Position numbers and translations under genes: made by a program. Below are positions 2,452 through 41,279 of a stretch of 64,000 nucleotides of DNA, piece after piece. Location of the stretch: contig JAFRHI010000015.1 of NCBI GenBank assembly GCA_017433415.1, positions 1-64,000 on the forward strand. The letters run 5' to 3'. The notes beneath the pieces are model-generated. The model searched no databases and was not told the DNA's origin. It saw only the letters and a list, made by a program, of their open reading frames with translations. The stretch comes from Bacilli bacterium. Lineage in GTDB: Bacteria; Bacillota_I; Bacilli_A; RF39; UBA660. How positions within the stretch are numbered: the first letter of the stretch is position 1; each line of letters starts with the position of its first letter.

Positions 2452-4176
2452 ATGAATGAAAATATTGCGAATACAATTCGTAGTAAAGTAGATATAGTTG
2501 ATATCATCGGTGAAAGAATACCACTTGTTGCTAGGGGCAAAAACTTCTTCGGAGTTTGCCCCTTTCATGATGATACAAATCCTTCAATGAGTGTATCAAG
2601 AGAAAAACAAATTTATACTTGTTTTTCCTGCCATGCAACTGGTAATGTTTATACATTCTTAATGAATTATGAACATATGGACTTTAGAGAAGTATTAAAA
2701 TATTTAGGTGATAGAGTTGGTATTGATACTGGCTCAGTTCACGTCACTAAAAAAACTACTAAATATGATAAATTATATGAAGCATATAATTTAACTTTAA
2801 AGTATTATCAAAACAATCTTAATAGTAACATTGGCAAAATTGCCAAAAAGTATTTAAGAGAAAGAAAAATCACAGAAGAATTAATCAAAGAATTTGAAAT
2901 AGGATTATCCCTAGATTCAAAGGATGACTTAACTAAGTTATTAACTTCTAAAGAATATGATTTAGTTACACTAAATAGAATAGGCCTATCTAGTGATAAT
3001 CATGATATCTATAATAATAGAATTATGTTTCCTCTGTATGATATTAATGGCCGAGTAGTTGGTTTTAGTGGTCGAATATATGATAATTCAAATCAGAATA
3101 AGTATTTGAATACTAAAGAGACAGATATCTTTAAAAAAGGAGAATTATTATATCACTACCATATTGCTAAAGAAGAATGTCGCATAGCAAAATCAGTTAT
3201 TGTTATGGAAGGTTTCATGGATGTTATAAGAGCATCATCAATTGGAGTAAAAAACACTGTGGCTTTAATGGGTACAGCTCTAACTAAAGAACAAATTAAT
3301 TTATTAAAGAGATTATCAAAAAATATAGTATTATGTTTAGATGGTGATGATGCCGGTGTAAAAGCAACCCTAAGTATTGGTAATACTCTACTTGAACAGG
3401 GAATAGAAGTAAAAGTAATATCTCTACCAAATCCAGATGACCCAGACACATACATTTTAAATAATGGTAAATCTAAATTTTTAAATTTACTTTCTTCAGC
3501 AGAAAATTTTTCAGATTATCGAATGAATCAACTTCGTAAAAATGTAAATTTTAAAAGTGATGAAGAATTAGCAACATATATTAATAAAGTACTAGAAGAA
3601 ACTGCTAAAATAAATGATGAAATTAGAAGAGAAGTAATATTGAAAAAGCTTGCAAAAGAATTTGATATAGGGTATAATACTTTGGAAATGCGTATTAATA
3701 GCTTGCTTAAAAAGGAAGCTAAACAAGAAGAGGTAATTATACCTAAAAAAAGTATAGTTAAAAAGGATAAATATACTAAAGCTTTTGAACAAATAATATA
3801 CTTCATGTTAAATAATGATTGGATAATAACAAAAGTAGAACAAGAACGTTTAATTTTTCCTAATGAAGCAATGCGTTCAATCTGCAATGAAATAATTTAT
3901 TACTATAAGAAAAATGGTAATATTAATGTTGCAGATTTTTATACTTATATCCAAGGAAAAGACAACTTAGAAAAGGTTATTAGTGACATTTTGGCTGATA
4001 GTTATAATGAGACTACAAATGAAGAGGAGCTTAATCTTTATTTTAATGTTATTAAAGAATATAGTACAAAACAAGAAATAAAGAGACTCACAAATTTAAT
4101 GAAAAAAGAAATAGATCCATTAGAACAAGCTAAAATAGTTGAAAAGATTAGAAAGCTCAGGTTAGGAGATAATTAG
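2452..4176 (+). CDS. dnaG: DNA primase DnaG
   Basis: Makes RNA primers for the replication fork. From the ATG at 2452 the protein has 574 residues, near the family norm. A CHC2 zinc ribbon is formed by C36, H39, C57 and C60. The TOPRIM catalytic core follows, with the EGFMD and LCLDGDDAG motifs that bind metal. The C-terminal ~150 residues fit the DnaB-helicase-binding region. An in-frame GTG at 2440 lies inside the ribosome binding site AAGGTGGTG (2438-2446), so the ATG is preferred. The gene sits 1 nt ahead of sigA, as in many Bacilli (the macromolecular synthesis operon). Confidence 0.97.
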
Positions 4177-4177
4177 T

Positions 4178-5272
4178 ATGGTTGAAGAGATAAAGACAAT
4201 TGAAGAAAGAAAAGAAAAATTAATTGCTCTAGGAAAAAAACAAGGTTATGTAACTTATGAACAATTGGCTGATCAATTAAAAGGTTTAGATATTGATAGT
4301 GATACTCTAGATGAATTGTATAATGCCCTAGTAGAAGCAAATATTGATATTGTTACTGAAGATGGATCTGATGATGAAGCTAGTGGAGAAGAAATAACTA
4401 GTGACATGTCAGTAGAAAATCTAACTCTATCAAAAGACGTAAAAATAAATGATCCAGTTAGAATGTATTTAAAAGAAATTGGTCGTATTAACTTATTAAC
4501 TTCAGATGAAGAGTTTGAATATGCTAAACGAGCTGAAGCTGGAGACGAAGAAGCTAAACGTTTACTTGCGGAATCTAATTTACGTCTAGTTGTAAGTATT
4601 GCCAAAAGATATGTTGGTCGAGGAATGCTTTTCTTAGATCTTATTCAAGAAGGAAATATTGGTTTAATGAAAGCTGTTGATAAATTTGATCCAACAAAAG
4701 GATATAAATTTTCTACTTATGCAACTTGGTGGATTCGTCAAGCCATAACAAGAGCTATAGCCGATCAAGCAAGAACGATTCGTGTTCCAGTTCATATGGT
4801 AGAAACAATTAATAAATTAGCTCGTGTTCAACGTCAACTAACTCAAGAATTAAATCGTGAGCCAACTGATGAAGAAATAGCTAAAAAACTAGACATAACT
4901 GTTGAAAAAGTTCGTGAGGTATATAAAATATCTCAAGACCCTGTATCACTTGAAACTCCAATTGGTGAAGAAGATGATTCTCACTTAGGTGACTTCATCA
5001 AAGATGAAAGAACTATGGGACCTGAAGAATATGCCACAGTTGAAATGTTAAAAGAAGAATTAAGAGGTGTTTTAGCAACCTTAACTGAAAGAGAAGAAAA
5101 AGTTTTAAGACTTCGCTTTGGTCTAGATGATGGTCAATGCCGAACTCTAGAAGAAGTTGGACAAATATTTGGCGTAACTCGTGAAAGAATTCGTCAAATT
5201 GAAGCTAAAGCCCTTCGCAAATTAAGACATCCATCTCGTTCTCGTAAACTAAAGGATTTCTTAACAGACTAA
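4178..5272 (+). CDS. sigA: RNA polymerase housekeeping sigma factor (SigA/RpoD)
   Basis: Directs RNA polymerase to -10/-35 promoters. The 364 residues fit the compact Firmicutes form. Region 1.1-like N-terminus, region 1.2 ([11 protein letters not shown]), region 2 with [17 protein letters not shown] and the -10-melting [10 protein letters not shown], region 3, and region 4.2 helix-turn-helix ([18 protein letters not shown]) occur in order. It starts 1 nt after dnaG and its TAA overlaps the ATG of trmK by 1 nt, so the three are one operon. The promoters found in this window match the consensus of this sigma class. Confidence 0.97.
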
Positions 5273-37507: not shown

Positions 37508-37969
37508 ATGGTTGATTATATTGTAGAAAGAAAAAAATTATATGCTGGTAGATTAATAAAAGGTAGTAGAGTAAGTTATCCAGTACTATTTAAAATAGAT
37601 GAATTTGATTTTGCTGATGATTTATTATCAGATCCACCTAAAAAATATCAAATAAAAGAAAAAACATCTAATGAGGATTATATAGGGGTATTTGTTGAAA
37701 ATCCTTTTAAATTAGAAAAATTACTAAAATATCTTGGATATGGTAAAGAATTAACAAGATGTGATTTAATAGATATTTTTGAAAACTTAATATTAGATGA
37801 TGAGTGGTTATTAAATAACAAGGAATTATTTGGTTGGACAAAACACAATTTAGGATATGTAGATGGAAGCTGTCAAGCACTTCCCTATGACTTGTTTTTA
37901 GATTTAGAAGATCTTAGTCGTACACCACAAAAAGAACAAGGCATAGAATATGTTAAAATAATGAAATAA
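37508..37969 (+). CDS. Hypothetical cytoplasmic protein
   Basis: 153 residues, soluble, acidic, no signal or membrane segment. It starts with a beta strand (VDYIVERKKLYAGRLIKG) and has two cysteines. No family recognised. It has its own promoter and an overlapping terminator, so it is monocistronic between the tRNA and the MoxR/VWA pair; a link to that pair is only positional. AAGGAGATG upstream of ATG. Confidence 0.6.
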   Translation: MVDYIVERKKLYAGRLIKGSRVSYPVLFKIDEFDFADDLLSDPPKKYQIKEKTSNEDYIGVFVENPFKLEKLLKYLGYGKELTRCDLIDIFENLILDDEWLLNNKELFGWTKHNLGYVDGSCQALPYDLFLDLEDLSRTPQKEQGIEYVKIMK

Positions 37970-38061: not shown

Positions 38062-39909
38062 ATGCATATCAATAAAATAGATCTTTTAGATGAAAAACAT
38101 TTAAGAGGAGAGAGAAAATTAAAAAGTATTCAAGAAAAAGGTACAGAAAGTAAAGCAACTGATCTTGCTCGTTTATTAGGAGTTAATTATAATTCTGCAG
38201 GTATCGGTGATTATTGGTATAGATGCCAAGCAACTGACAACAAAAAAAGTAAAGGTGAAATGTATTATGTTATGAGTAGTAGTTTTAAAGTTGCTTATCG
38301 CTCAGATGCAAAATCTGGAGTTAGAATCGCCATAGCACTTAGTGAAATAGAAGGACTAGACCCTGAAAAAACAGTTGCCGAAAATATCGCAGCCTTAAAT
38401 TTAGAATATCCACAAACAGTTATTGGCGATTTAGCTGGAGAAACAATTGCTAAACTTTTAGAAACTAATAGTGACGTTATATTAAGAACTGGTAAAATCC
38501 ACGATATAGCTGGGCAAAAGTACAATGAATATGAAATCTTTGGAACTAAGTTTATCCGTATGCATCCTAAAACAAAAGAGGCGAATAAATATTTAACTAA
38601 TGGTGAAGTTATTGATCCTGATAAAGAATACTACCTTCGCATTGAACCAATTAGTTTTACATTGGATGAAGATAAAGGCTTAATTTATTCTGATGATATC
38701 ATAAGTTGTAGTATTTATGATAGTCATAAAAGTAAATATGAAAATAGTCAAATATATCGTGATTTAAATGGCGATTTCTTACGTGATTTAAACAATGAAT
38801 TATTAAAAGAAATTGATCAAACTACATTTAAAGAAATAAAATCTGAATATAAAAATCGTTATGGCTTTGATTTTAAACCTTTAACAGAAGAAGAAATAAT
38901 CGAAATATGTATTAATTGTAATATAGCTGTATTTCTTCACGGAAAGACAGGTACTGGAAAAACTGAAAGAATGTTAACTTTAGATAGAGATTTAGAATTA
39001 ATTGATTTTGGTTGTACATCAGCAGATGGTTTTACTGGTATTATTGCTAAAGATTATAATTCTCAAGAATTAAAATTATATGAACCATATTGGTATAAAA
39101 GTTTATGCAAAAAATGTGCAGAAAAGCCAAATAAAATTCATATCCTTTTTCTTGAAGAGTTAACTAATGCTAAAAGTGATATTCAAAAAGTAGCTTTTGA
39201 AGTTACTCTAGCTAAAACTTTAACAAATAGTGGCTTTCGTCTTCACTTACCAAAAAATGCCGTTGTTTGTGCAGCTGGTAATGAAAGTGATGAATCAAAA
39301 TCTGCATCTCCATTAAGCGAACCACTATTTGGAAGATTTGCTCATGTCTATATAGATACCGATTCTGAAAGCTGGATTCATTGGGCACTTGATAGGAAAA
39401 AAAATAATAAAGAACTATTATATAGCGCTAAAAAGAAACCAGAAGAAATTCATCCAGCTATAATTGAATATATAAAAATTAGAGGTAATACTGTTTTACG
39501 TACTCCATATAATGGAAAAACTCCAAATGCTGATCCTAGAAAATGGGCATTAGCATCACAAGCCCTATATGAATGTGGGAATCCTCAAGTACTTAGAGCT
39601 TTTGTAGGCAAAGAATTAACCCAAGATTTTATAAAATTTTCTCAATTATCACTGATATCAGTAGAAGATATAATTATGGGTAATGCTGATCCAAAGCAAA
39701 TATCTACCAACGCTGATGATCGTTGGGCTCAAATAATATATTTAACTTCAGTTGATGATGAACATGTTGATATAGTAAGAGATTTTTTAAGAAATCTTGA
39801 TAAAGAATACTTAAGTGTCTTTGACTATGAATGGTCTAAAAATAATCCTGAAAGAGTTATGCGTTTGTATACTGAAGAAAAAGCTGTTCAAAAAAGGATT
39901 ACAAAATGA
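38062..39909 (+). CDS. MoxR-like AAA+ ATPase with N-terminal permuted DUF6273-like domain
   Basis: 615 residues. Residues 270-480 are a MoxR-type AAA+ module: Walker A GKTGTGKT (294-301), Walker B ILFLEELTNA with Glu364 where Asp is usual, and an AGNESDES sensor-1 region. Residues 32-245 resemble the DUF6273 fold, but with its halves reversed: the end-type part (TDLARLLG, DYWYRC, SGVRIAIAL; 33-93) comes before the start-type part (EYPQTVIGD at 115, LRIEPISF, IYSDD, YENSQIYRDLNGDFL at 226-240). It overlaps the next gene by 4 nt. MoxR-VWA pairs act as metal-dependent chaperones. The start is ATG 38062 after AGGGGG. Confidence 0.8.
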   Translation: MHINKIDLLDEKHLRGERKLKSIQEKGTESKATDLARLLGVNYNSAGIGDYWYRCQATDNKKSKGEMYYVMSSSFKVAYRSDAKSGVRIAIALSEIEGLDPEKTVAENIAALNLEYPQTVIGDLAGETIAKLLETNSDVILRTGKIHDIAGQKYNEYEIFGTKFIRMHPKTKEANKYLTNGEVIDPDKEYYLRIEPISFTLDEDKGLIYSDDIISCSIYDSHKSKYENSQIYRDLNGDFLRDLNNELLKEIDQTTFKEIKSEYKNRYGFDFKPLTEEEIIEICINCNIAVFLHGKTGTGKTERMLTLDRDLELIDFGCTSADGFTGIIAKDYNSQELKLYEPYWYKSLCKKCAEKPNKIHILFLEELTNAKSDIQKVAFEVTLAKTLTNSGFRLHLPKNAVVCAAGNESDESKSASPLSEPLFGRFAHVYIDTDSESWIHWALDRKKNNKELLYSAKKKPEEIHPAIIEYIKIRGNTVLRTPYNGKTPNADPRKWALASQALYECGNPQVLRAFVGKELTQDFIKFSQLSLISVEDIIMGNADPKQISTNADDRWAQIIYLTSVDDEHVDIVRDFLRNLDKEYLSVFDYEWSKNNPERVMRLYTEEKAVQKRITK

Positions 39910-41279
39910 AAGAAGACATTAAAAAAATTGCCACAAGAGCAACATACCGTTATCCACTGTTTGCACCTACAATAGTTTCTATTAATTATGAATATACAAC
40001 ATTACCAGTTCCAGCTCCAGCTTTTACAGATGGAAAAACTTTTTATTATAAAGATTCCTTTTGGAGAGATTTTACATCAGAAGAAAGATTATTCATTTTT
40101 TGCCATGAAATACTCCATATAGTGTTAGCTCATATTTTCCGTAATGCAGGTAAAGATAAAGCGGTTCTAAATTGGGTTGAAGATGCCATAATAAATCAGT
40201 TTTTAGCAAGAGATGGCCTACCTATTCCTGCTGGGGCTGTTAATATACCGGATGCTCTAGATTATTCTGTTGAAGAACTTTATGAAAAATATTATCAGCT
40301 AAAAGCAGAAATTGCTGACTATATGCGACAATTTACATTTCATGTTGATTTAAAAACTTTAAAAGGTAAAATAACAGATCAAAATGGTAATGAAATAGAA
40401 ATTGATTTTTCAAAAGGAACACCAATGATTCCAATGAATGATAATCCAAAAACACAAGCAAATGACACATCTCTAAGTAATCAAAAAATTAAAGAGGAGA
40501 TTAATTCAATAATGGAAGCTAATAAAGATCTTCGTGATGAGATAGTAAAAGATGCCGAAAATGAATTAAGAGAAAAAGCTTATTCTGATAACCCTGGATT
40601 TAATCCTGAATTATATTCTTTAGGACAGGAATTAAGTGAAATGGAAGTCGGATTTCAAAGAGATTTAGTAGACTGGAGAAAATATTTAAAGTTAACTACT
40701 TCATCAGGAGAAAAGAGAGTTCTATATTATGAAATAGACCCCGACGGAGTTTTACAAAAACAATATAGTAGTGCTGAGCCAGATGAAACAGAAAGTGAAA
40801 TAGTTATTGATAGTAGCGGATCAATGGATATTGATACATTAAAAACAGTACTTCGTGAAGTTAAAAATATTTTAAATACCGGTGAAGTAAAAATGGGTTT
40901 TTGTGATACTAAATTTAGTGGTTTTCAAAATATCTATAGTGACAGTGATATCGATAAAGTAAGAATAGTAGGACGTGGAGGAACTGATTTTGAAGCTATG
41001 GCTGCAGCTTTCTCTCCTAATGCTGAAAATAAAATAGTTATAACGGATGGTTGGGGCTTTTTCCCAGATGGTTATAATGATGTCTTATGGGTAATAATTG
41101 GTTGGTTTGAACCACCATTTTTAAAAACTCTAAAGGAAAGAAATATTGAATATGCATTTATAGATTTATCAAATCCTGTAATTAGAAACAAAGTAAGAAA
41201 TGCCCATAAAATAATTAGAGAAGAGCCAGAAGAACTAGAAACTGAAACTTATAAAGTATTAGAAAAAATGATAAGTTGA
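39906..41279 (+). CDS. Metallopeptidase-like / VWA protein (DUF2201 type)
   Basis: 457 residues. N-terminal zincin-like domain with H67-E68-I-L-H71 (HEILHIVLAH), then a charged helical linker, then a VWA-like domain from about 290. The MIDAS is complete: D302-x-S304-x-S306 (IDSSGSM) plus the GRGGTDF threonine and TDGWG. It is the usual partner of a MoxR AAA+ gene and overlaps it by 4 nt, so a two-protein complex is inferred. Whether the HExxH site cuts protein is unknown. Ends in TGA. Confidence 0.85.
   Translation: MKEDIKKIATRATYRYPLFAPTIVSINYEYTTLPVPAPAFTDGKTFYYKDSFWRDFTSEERLFIFCHEILHIVLAHIFRNAGKDKAVLNWVEDAIINQFLARDGLPIPAGAVNIPDALDYSVEELYEKYYQLKAEIADYMRQFTFHVDLKTLKGKITDQNGNEIEIDFSKGTPMIPMNDNPKTQANDTSLSNQKIKEEINSIMEANKDLRDEIVKDAENELREKAYSDNPGFNPELYSLGQELSEMEVGFQRDLVDWRKYLKLTTSSGEKRVLYYEIDPDGVLQKQYSSAEPDETESEIVIDSSGSMDIDTLKTVLREVKNILNTGEVKMGFCDTKFSGFQNIYSDSDIDKVRIVGRGGTDFEAMAAAFSPNAENKIVITDGWGFFPDGYNDVLWVIIGWFEPPFLKTLKERNIEYAFIDLSNPVIRNKVRNAHKIIREEPEELETETYKVLEKMIS

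Follow-up and report, generated by a model that had tools for sequence, protein, structure and literature searches.

It is already known that the DUF6273 domain has a C-type lectin fold and serves as a target of DGR retroelements (PMC10743442, PMC11792537), and that DGRs are linked to MoxR-vWA systems, whose diversified lectin domains were proposed to act as antigen sensors (PMC10907252). DGR targets near-universally carry the variable region at their C-terminus (PMC8144416). Here, a MoxR/VWA gene pair was analyzed that lies in a stretch of 64,000 nucleotides of Bacilli DNA (hereafter the window). The ATPase of this pair was confirmed to carry a complete DUF6273 (C-type-lectin-like) domain whose two halves are swapped.

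The first gene of the pair (38062..39909, + strand) encodes a MoxR-type AAA+ ATPase of 615 aa with the circularly permuted domain at its N-terminus, an assignment based on the open reading frame, Pfam, profile matches and full-length homologs. Its MoxR-type AAA+ module (38887..39906, + strand) was delimited by Pfam, invariant columns in the alignment of relatives and motif counts. AAA_5 was matched above cut-off (residues 290-426, 25 bits against a cut-off of 22), and the protein contains a Walker A motif (GKTGTGKT, residues 294-301), a Walker B motif (ILFLEEL, 361-367), sensor 1 (N407), sensor 2 (R493) and a candidate arginine finger (R425). The Walker-B exchange of Asp to Glu, noticed in a preliminary description of this DNA, is also found as LEEL in 11 of the 77 relatives counted, most of the others having DE. 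The ATPase had no match in NCBIfam, its sequence has no signal peptide, and in Pfam its DUF6273 match stays below the gathering score (16.3 of 23.5 bits), covering residues 207-262 and profile positions 5-69 only. The second gene (39906..41279, + strand) was assigned by Pfam, motifs and adjacency in relatives to a partner of 457 aa with a zincin-like DUF2201_N domain and a DUF2201 VWA domain, both above the Pfam cut-off. Just as had been described, this partner combines an HExxH motif (HEILH, residues 67-71) with a complete MIDAS (DSSGS, 302-306), and its gene overlaps that of the ATPase by 4 nt (39906..39909, + strand), which makes translational coupling probable. Since HExxH is present in 58 of 65 partners counted and missing in the remaining 7, peptidase activity does not appear to be universal among the partners of relatives. 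Upstream of the pair lies an orphan gene of 153 aa (37508-37969) that gave no Pfam or NCBIfam match and is not kept beside related pairs.

The preliminary description had placed two DUF6273 halves in reversed order at residues 33-93 and 115-240 of the ATPase. A canonical profile built from three canonical DUF6273 proteins of other families of the same class (L011, L093 and L094) agreed with this: model positions 30-164 were matched to residues 115-256 (E 5.7e-11) and model positions 204-272 to residues 26-95 (E 0.006), so that the halves stand in reversed order. Reciprocally, a profile of 40 permuted regions matched L011, L093 and L094 as segments in reversed order. Profile-profile comparison by hhalign of the 40-sequence permuted alignment with a 26-sequence canonical alignment gave two matches without overlap, one of query 107-270 to template 28-177 (probability 99.0, E 9e-18) and one of query 4-102 to template 208-299 (probability 96.7, E 4e-10). 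When the permuted alignment was rotated back, a single hhalign match over 219 columns was obtained (score 191, E 2.4e-27), as against scores of 160, 159 and 101 for wrong cuts at residues 60, 160 and 200. In canonical proteins, the position of the break is in the long loop behind the WLN helix, directly before the LLSY/TDYA segment. The HMMER scores of rotated canonical sequences discriminated poorly, the match being split by insertions, and in the PDB the ATPase sequence matched only dUTPases, and these weakly (E about 0.2).

The C-terminal half of the domain, now N-terminal, was thus located by the canonical profile, hhalign and the structural model at residues 4-95 (38071..38346, + strand; TDLARLLG, YWYRC, SGVRIAIAL), and the N-terminal half by the canonical profile and hhalign at residues 107-262 (38380..38847, + strand; EYPQTV, YYLRIEPISF, YRDLNGDFL). 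Both halves are present and homologous to DUF6273, in an order that is not the canonical one. A search of relatives and a profile of eight N-terminal regions gave the same arrangement, namely a first block ending in GVRP and a second block that starts with YPQ and ends in a WLN-like helix, and the reversed order is found in the window protein and in all of its full-length relatives, of which there are dozens. Chance similarity and a half-match artefact were ruled out by the reciprocal profiles and the rotation controls. A second copy in normal order also fails as the source of the pattern, as there are stand-alone permuted proteins, about 270-300 aa long, that contain a single domain (for example L012, L036 and L039).

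Structure prediction was applied to both forms. AlphaFold2 modelled residues 1-262 of the window protein from a 40-row alignment as one compact domain (pLDDT 89, pTM 0.87), and the canonical domain of L187 with a pLDDT of 92.8 and a pTM of 0.89. The canonical model runs from the YPQ strand through a helix, strands, the WLN helix, further helices, the TDYA-type helix and the WWLR strand to a hairpin and the GVRP-type strand. The permuted model starts with helices, the TDLA helix, the YWYR strand, the hairpin and the GVR strand and continues with the YPQ strand, a helix, strands and the DLN helix. As predicted, the two models therefore contain the same elements in rotated order. With the canonical model, Foldseek matched PDB 9qa6 (252 columns, E 1.2e-7), the structure of an IgA peptidase from Thomasclavelia, in which DUF6273 forms the N-terminal domain (PMC12402451). 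Foldseek returned nothing usable for the permuted model; because Foldseek is order-dependent, this outcome is consistent with the permutation and does not prove it. The fusion of a permuted DUF6273 domain to a MoxR AAA+ module, as originally proposed, is hence borne out by profile, structure-prediction and comparative evidence.

The search of relatives yielded two homologs about 54% identical to the ATPase over its full length, and a scan of genome contigs added further full-length homologs. The full-length ATPase was matched in 11 of 99 relatives, a patchy distribution. The contig scan comprised 78 loci, nearly all from MAGs, whose named sources include the gut of rabbits and ruminants; nearly all loci encode the permuted-domain/AAA fusion followed by a DUF2201-VWA gene, so that fusion and partner gene recur together in dozens of gut MAGs. 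The record titles of these loci name Bacilli, Tenericutes, Clostridia, Oscillospiraceae and others, and the records titled Clostridia reflect either a wider spread or mislabelled bins. Among the 346 class genomes sampled, full-length permuted matches were confined to the window's family, two other matches being half-matches to canonical proteins, and a sample of 344 genomes of the phylum gave no additional permuted matches. A search of viral contigs with the full ATPase returned one contig, and phage and plasmid records gave no match. A contig filed as viral (L234, IMGVR_UViG_3300006217_003178) encodes a reverse transcriptase (RT), split Avd-like frames, a permuted-domain ATPase, a P-loop-less mini-AAA protein and the VWA gene.

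The two genes of the pair are all that is conserved between the window locus and its nearest relatives, and no conserved third gene was found around the window pair. The main third gene in sister lineages encodes the mini-AAA, an AAA-like protein of 120-140 aa without a P-loop and with a weak Pfam AAA match, which is present in 44 loci, usually between ATPase and partner (for example L182:6925-7314, L118:2080-2478 and L170:1235-1627), and is perhaps a regulatory pseudo-subunit. It is missing at the window locus. No effector or VMAP-like third gene was found to be conserved. Neither the ATPase nor the partner nor the mini-AAA matched a PADLOC defence model, and the matches of the RT from relatives were to generic RT models. 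Other settings of the permuted domain are stand-alone proteins, tandem arrays and fusions to ankyrin repeats (L026:799-3816, two tandem genes), to a Clp-like AAA domain (L044:1411-3228) or to a second MoxR type. In L037:1486-3255 it is followed by a long C-terminal region with no confident Pfam match, and in L031:2501-3610 and L035:1297-2337 it is present together with the C-terminal tail of the ATPase, the AAA core being missing. Arrays of as many as six consecutive stand-alone proteins, each of about 300 aa, were seen in G156:C24 (L215), G282:C2 (L216) and G237 (L217-L219); G156 and G282 gave no RT match.

According to sequence comparisons, the permuted domain in relatives is a DGR target, a feature absent from the preliminary description. 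An RT is encoded directly upstream in 14 of the 78 loci. Every RT gene that includes the region concerned encodes the DGR hallmark GNQ[ST]SQ, and many of these loci also contain an Avd-like gene. The template repeat (TR) precedes the start of the target by about 1.3-1.4 kb, and in the ATPase fusion the variable repeat (VR) covers residues about 69-113. Of the 125 mismatches between the repeats of ten distinct loci, 107 arose at template adenines and 3 went the other way; an eleventh case is the IMG/VR contig. Changes to C, G and T were all seen in the seven TR/VR pairs examined, distributed over codon positions 1, 2 and 3 as 21, 45 and 12. The template is identical in L175, L176 and L177, and each of these three loci has a different variable repeat. 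RT, Avd-like gene and adenine-biased repeats are thus all present in relatives, and complete cassettes aimed at the permuted domain of the ATPase were found in L182 (RT 3819-4934, Avd-like gene 2894-3535, TR 3629-3708), L117, L119, L141 and L175-L177. A second, deeper MoxR type is also accompanied by an RT (L025 and L084). Repeats in loci without an RT showed no adenine bias and were discarded. In the same class, RT or Avd-like neighbors were also noticed beside DUF6273-type proteins of canonical order (L047, L062, L195, L198 and L199), and the DGR association may have originated from such loci.

Mapped onto the window protein, the variable repeat corresponds to residues 55-92, the hairpin between YWYR and GVR (38224..38337, + strand), as judged by mapping, the TR/VR pairs and a peak of variability in close pairs. 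Close relatives differ most at window residues 57-84, and in close orthologs the differences are mainly at positions 70-84. Over 66 close pairs, dN/dS of the AAA part was mostly 0.03-0.2, and that of the domain reached 0.4-1.7 in many pairs of the mini-AAA lineages. Between L180 and L183, 24 nonsynonymous and 4 synonymous differences were counted in the domain, versus 6 and 29 in the AAA part (Fisher p 4e-8). Several close pairs have discordant synonymous distances between domain and AAA, which suggests recombination. Tandem ATPase copies are mostly 95-98% identical in the AAA part and, in most cases, 45-89% identical in the domain; an exception is L147 with four copies and near-identical domains. 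At this locus (L147:419-9878) the four copies surround one VWA gene, and three of the permuted domains are identical, unlike in other tandem sets.

The window copy itself is without these elements. No RVT_1 match was obtained in the window genome (91.5% complete), which contains neither a second copy of the variable-segment DNA of the window gene or its contig-truncated paralog nor a template repeat. This paralog, a second permuted-domain/AAA gene (G000:C20:23866-24929; L214:18867-19928), is ended by the contig just past Walker A, and no RT was found upstream in the stretch read. No RT is carried by any of the 7 window-like loci whose upstream sequence extends over 2.5 kb or more; the corresponding counts are 10 of 28 loci in the mini-AAA group and 0 of 10 in the L145-L161 type. 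The dN/dS of the domain is likewise low in the window-like trio (0.13-0.27) and in the L145-L161 type (0.16-0.26). In the AAA tree, the window belongs to a clade of 11 members (support 1.00), whose sister L116 (support 1.00) has an RT and a mini-AAA. Since this sister lineage and the deeper MoxR type carry an RT, the simplest reading is that the retroelement was likely lost in the window clade, and the window copy probably descends from ancestors that were diversified by a DGR, its own specificity now being fixed.

The permutation, the intact AAA+ motifs, the conserved pairing and, in relatives, the hypermutated hairpin on a strongly constrained ATPase, together with a domain predicted to be compact, make it likely in our view that the pair is a recognition-and-remodelling machine, in which a ligand-binding, permuted lectin-like head on a MoxR motor is coupled to a VWA/metallopeptidase partner. 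An ATP-driven ring is suggested because the AAA+ motifs are intact and because of known MoxR biology; each subunit would carry an N-terminal permuted head, so that several heads would be displayed per ring. Ligands, presumably cytoplasmic, would be bound via the hairpin around residues 55-92, as in DGR-variable proteins. Binding would be coupled through ATP hydrolysis to the partner, the likely receiver, which would then act on the bound target, possibly as a metallopeptidase, or would itself be activated. The pair may thereby serve in conflict or defence. That the domain recognizes a target, as the preliminary description suggested, has become more credible because the equivalent hairpin of relatives is hypermutated by DGRs; that the metal-dependent partner acts on this target is a step that we infer. 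The lack of RVT_1 and a template in the window genome, the RT-free window-like loci, the low dN/dS of the window trio, the missing PADLOC match, the want of a conserved effector or VMAP-like gene and the HExxH gaps count against a machine of this kind.

The rival that deserves most attention is a pair with a housekeeping role as chaperone or in metal insertion, as in NorQ/NorD or RavA/ViaA, in which the domain docks one host client, the VWA protein is an adaptor and there is no conflict or immune role. MoxR/VWA pairs of known role serve as chaperones in maturation (PMC9976466, PMC3893208). In addition, the window clade has no DGR and a domain under purifying selection in the measured trio, and conservation between loci is limited to the two genes. 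One fixed client is nevertheless a poor fit to the DGR hypermutation, the tandem diversified copies and the raised dN/dS of the sister lineages, and a housekeeping role to a patchily distributed ATPase. Overall we regard such a pair as unlikely, though the explanation stands for the window clade in particular. The halves might instead be a tandem DUF6273 remnant that pairs between neighboring subunits or genes by domain swapping, in which case no true permutation would exist. Tandem duplication is a known route to permutations and tandem copies do occur (L024, and one open frame of 960 aa in G220), but isolated single-copy permuted proteins are common and a single chain was predicted to fold into one compact domain, so that swapping is already disfavoured and appears very improbable.

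Equally hard to credit is an action outside the cell, with the domain as a surface or adhesion module diversified by a DGR and fused to the ATPase by chance. DUF6273 was rightly said to be usual on secreted or surface proteins: canonical relatives of the same class are mostly secreted or lipid-anchored, with visible signal peptides and lipoboxes, and cellular DGR targets are mostly membrane-bound (PMC8144416). The ATPase, however, has no signal peptide, AAA+ motors need cytoplasmic ATP, and the fusions to ankyrin repeats and Clp-like AAA also indicate the cytoplasm. Returning to the recognition-and-remodelling machine, a more specific form of it is a receptor inside the cell whose AAA+ motor itself bears the binding site rewritten by a retroelement, an arrangement that the permutation would have made possible by moving the variable hairpin to the N-terminus. 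We give this form an even chance. If true, gut Bacilli with small genomes, which are presumably unicellular, and their relatives would be capable of adaptive sensing in the manner of an antigen receptor, with some clades, such as that of the window, having one frozen specificity.

Compared with described DUF6273 proteins (PF19789; tentaclins and the N-terminal domain of the Thomasclavelia IgA peptidase, 9qa6), the halves, motifs and secondary-structure elements are homologous, and in phage DUF6273 proteins DGRs mutate the same hairpin segment (PMC10743442, PMC11792537). Unlike in the canonical domain, the halves are swapped, the protein is cytoplasmic by inference, the domain stands ahead of an AAA+ motor and its score stays under the Pfam cut-off. 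Neither a circular permutation of DUF6273 or of a lectin-fold DGR target, nor an ATPase as the variable protein, an N-terminal variable region or the mini-AAA was found in the literature searched, which was mostly without subscription papers and preprints. RavA-ViaA and NorQ-NorD share the AAA+ gene beside a VWA gene and the intact MoxR motifs, but the N-terminal recognition domain, the zincin-like (HExxH) domain on the VWA protein and the DGR in relatives set the present pair apart. Typical DGR targets (PMC8144416) have in common with the relatives a C-type-lectin variable domain, adenine-specific TR/VR differences and a nearby Avd-like gene and RT; here, however, the target is an ATPase and the variable repeat lies at residues about 70-110 of about 640, its N-terminal position being due to the permutation of the domain. 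By analogy, the system looks like the DGR-diversified MoxR-vWA conflict systems, and the protein like an intracellular receptor of the kind proposed for bacterial immunity. MoxR ATPase, VWA partner and, in relatives, a DGR-made hypervariable C-type-lectin domain are shared with the ternary conflict systems (PMC7159879, PMC10907252). In those systems the vWA protein or a separate target carries the variable lectin and the third component is VMAP, iSTAND or FtsH, whereas here the variable domain is on the ATPase, permuted and variable near the N-terminus, and the third gene, where present, is the P-loop-less mini-AAA. The hosts also differ, being small-genome gut Bacilli and record-titled Clostridia and not the multicellular bacteria in which MoxR-vWA conflict systems were described. 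A diversified site on the motor itself provides a minimal and testable architecture for the coupling of binding to AAA+ activity.
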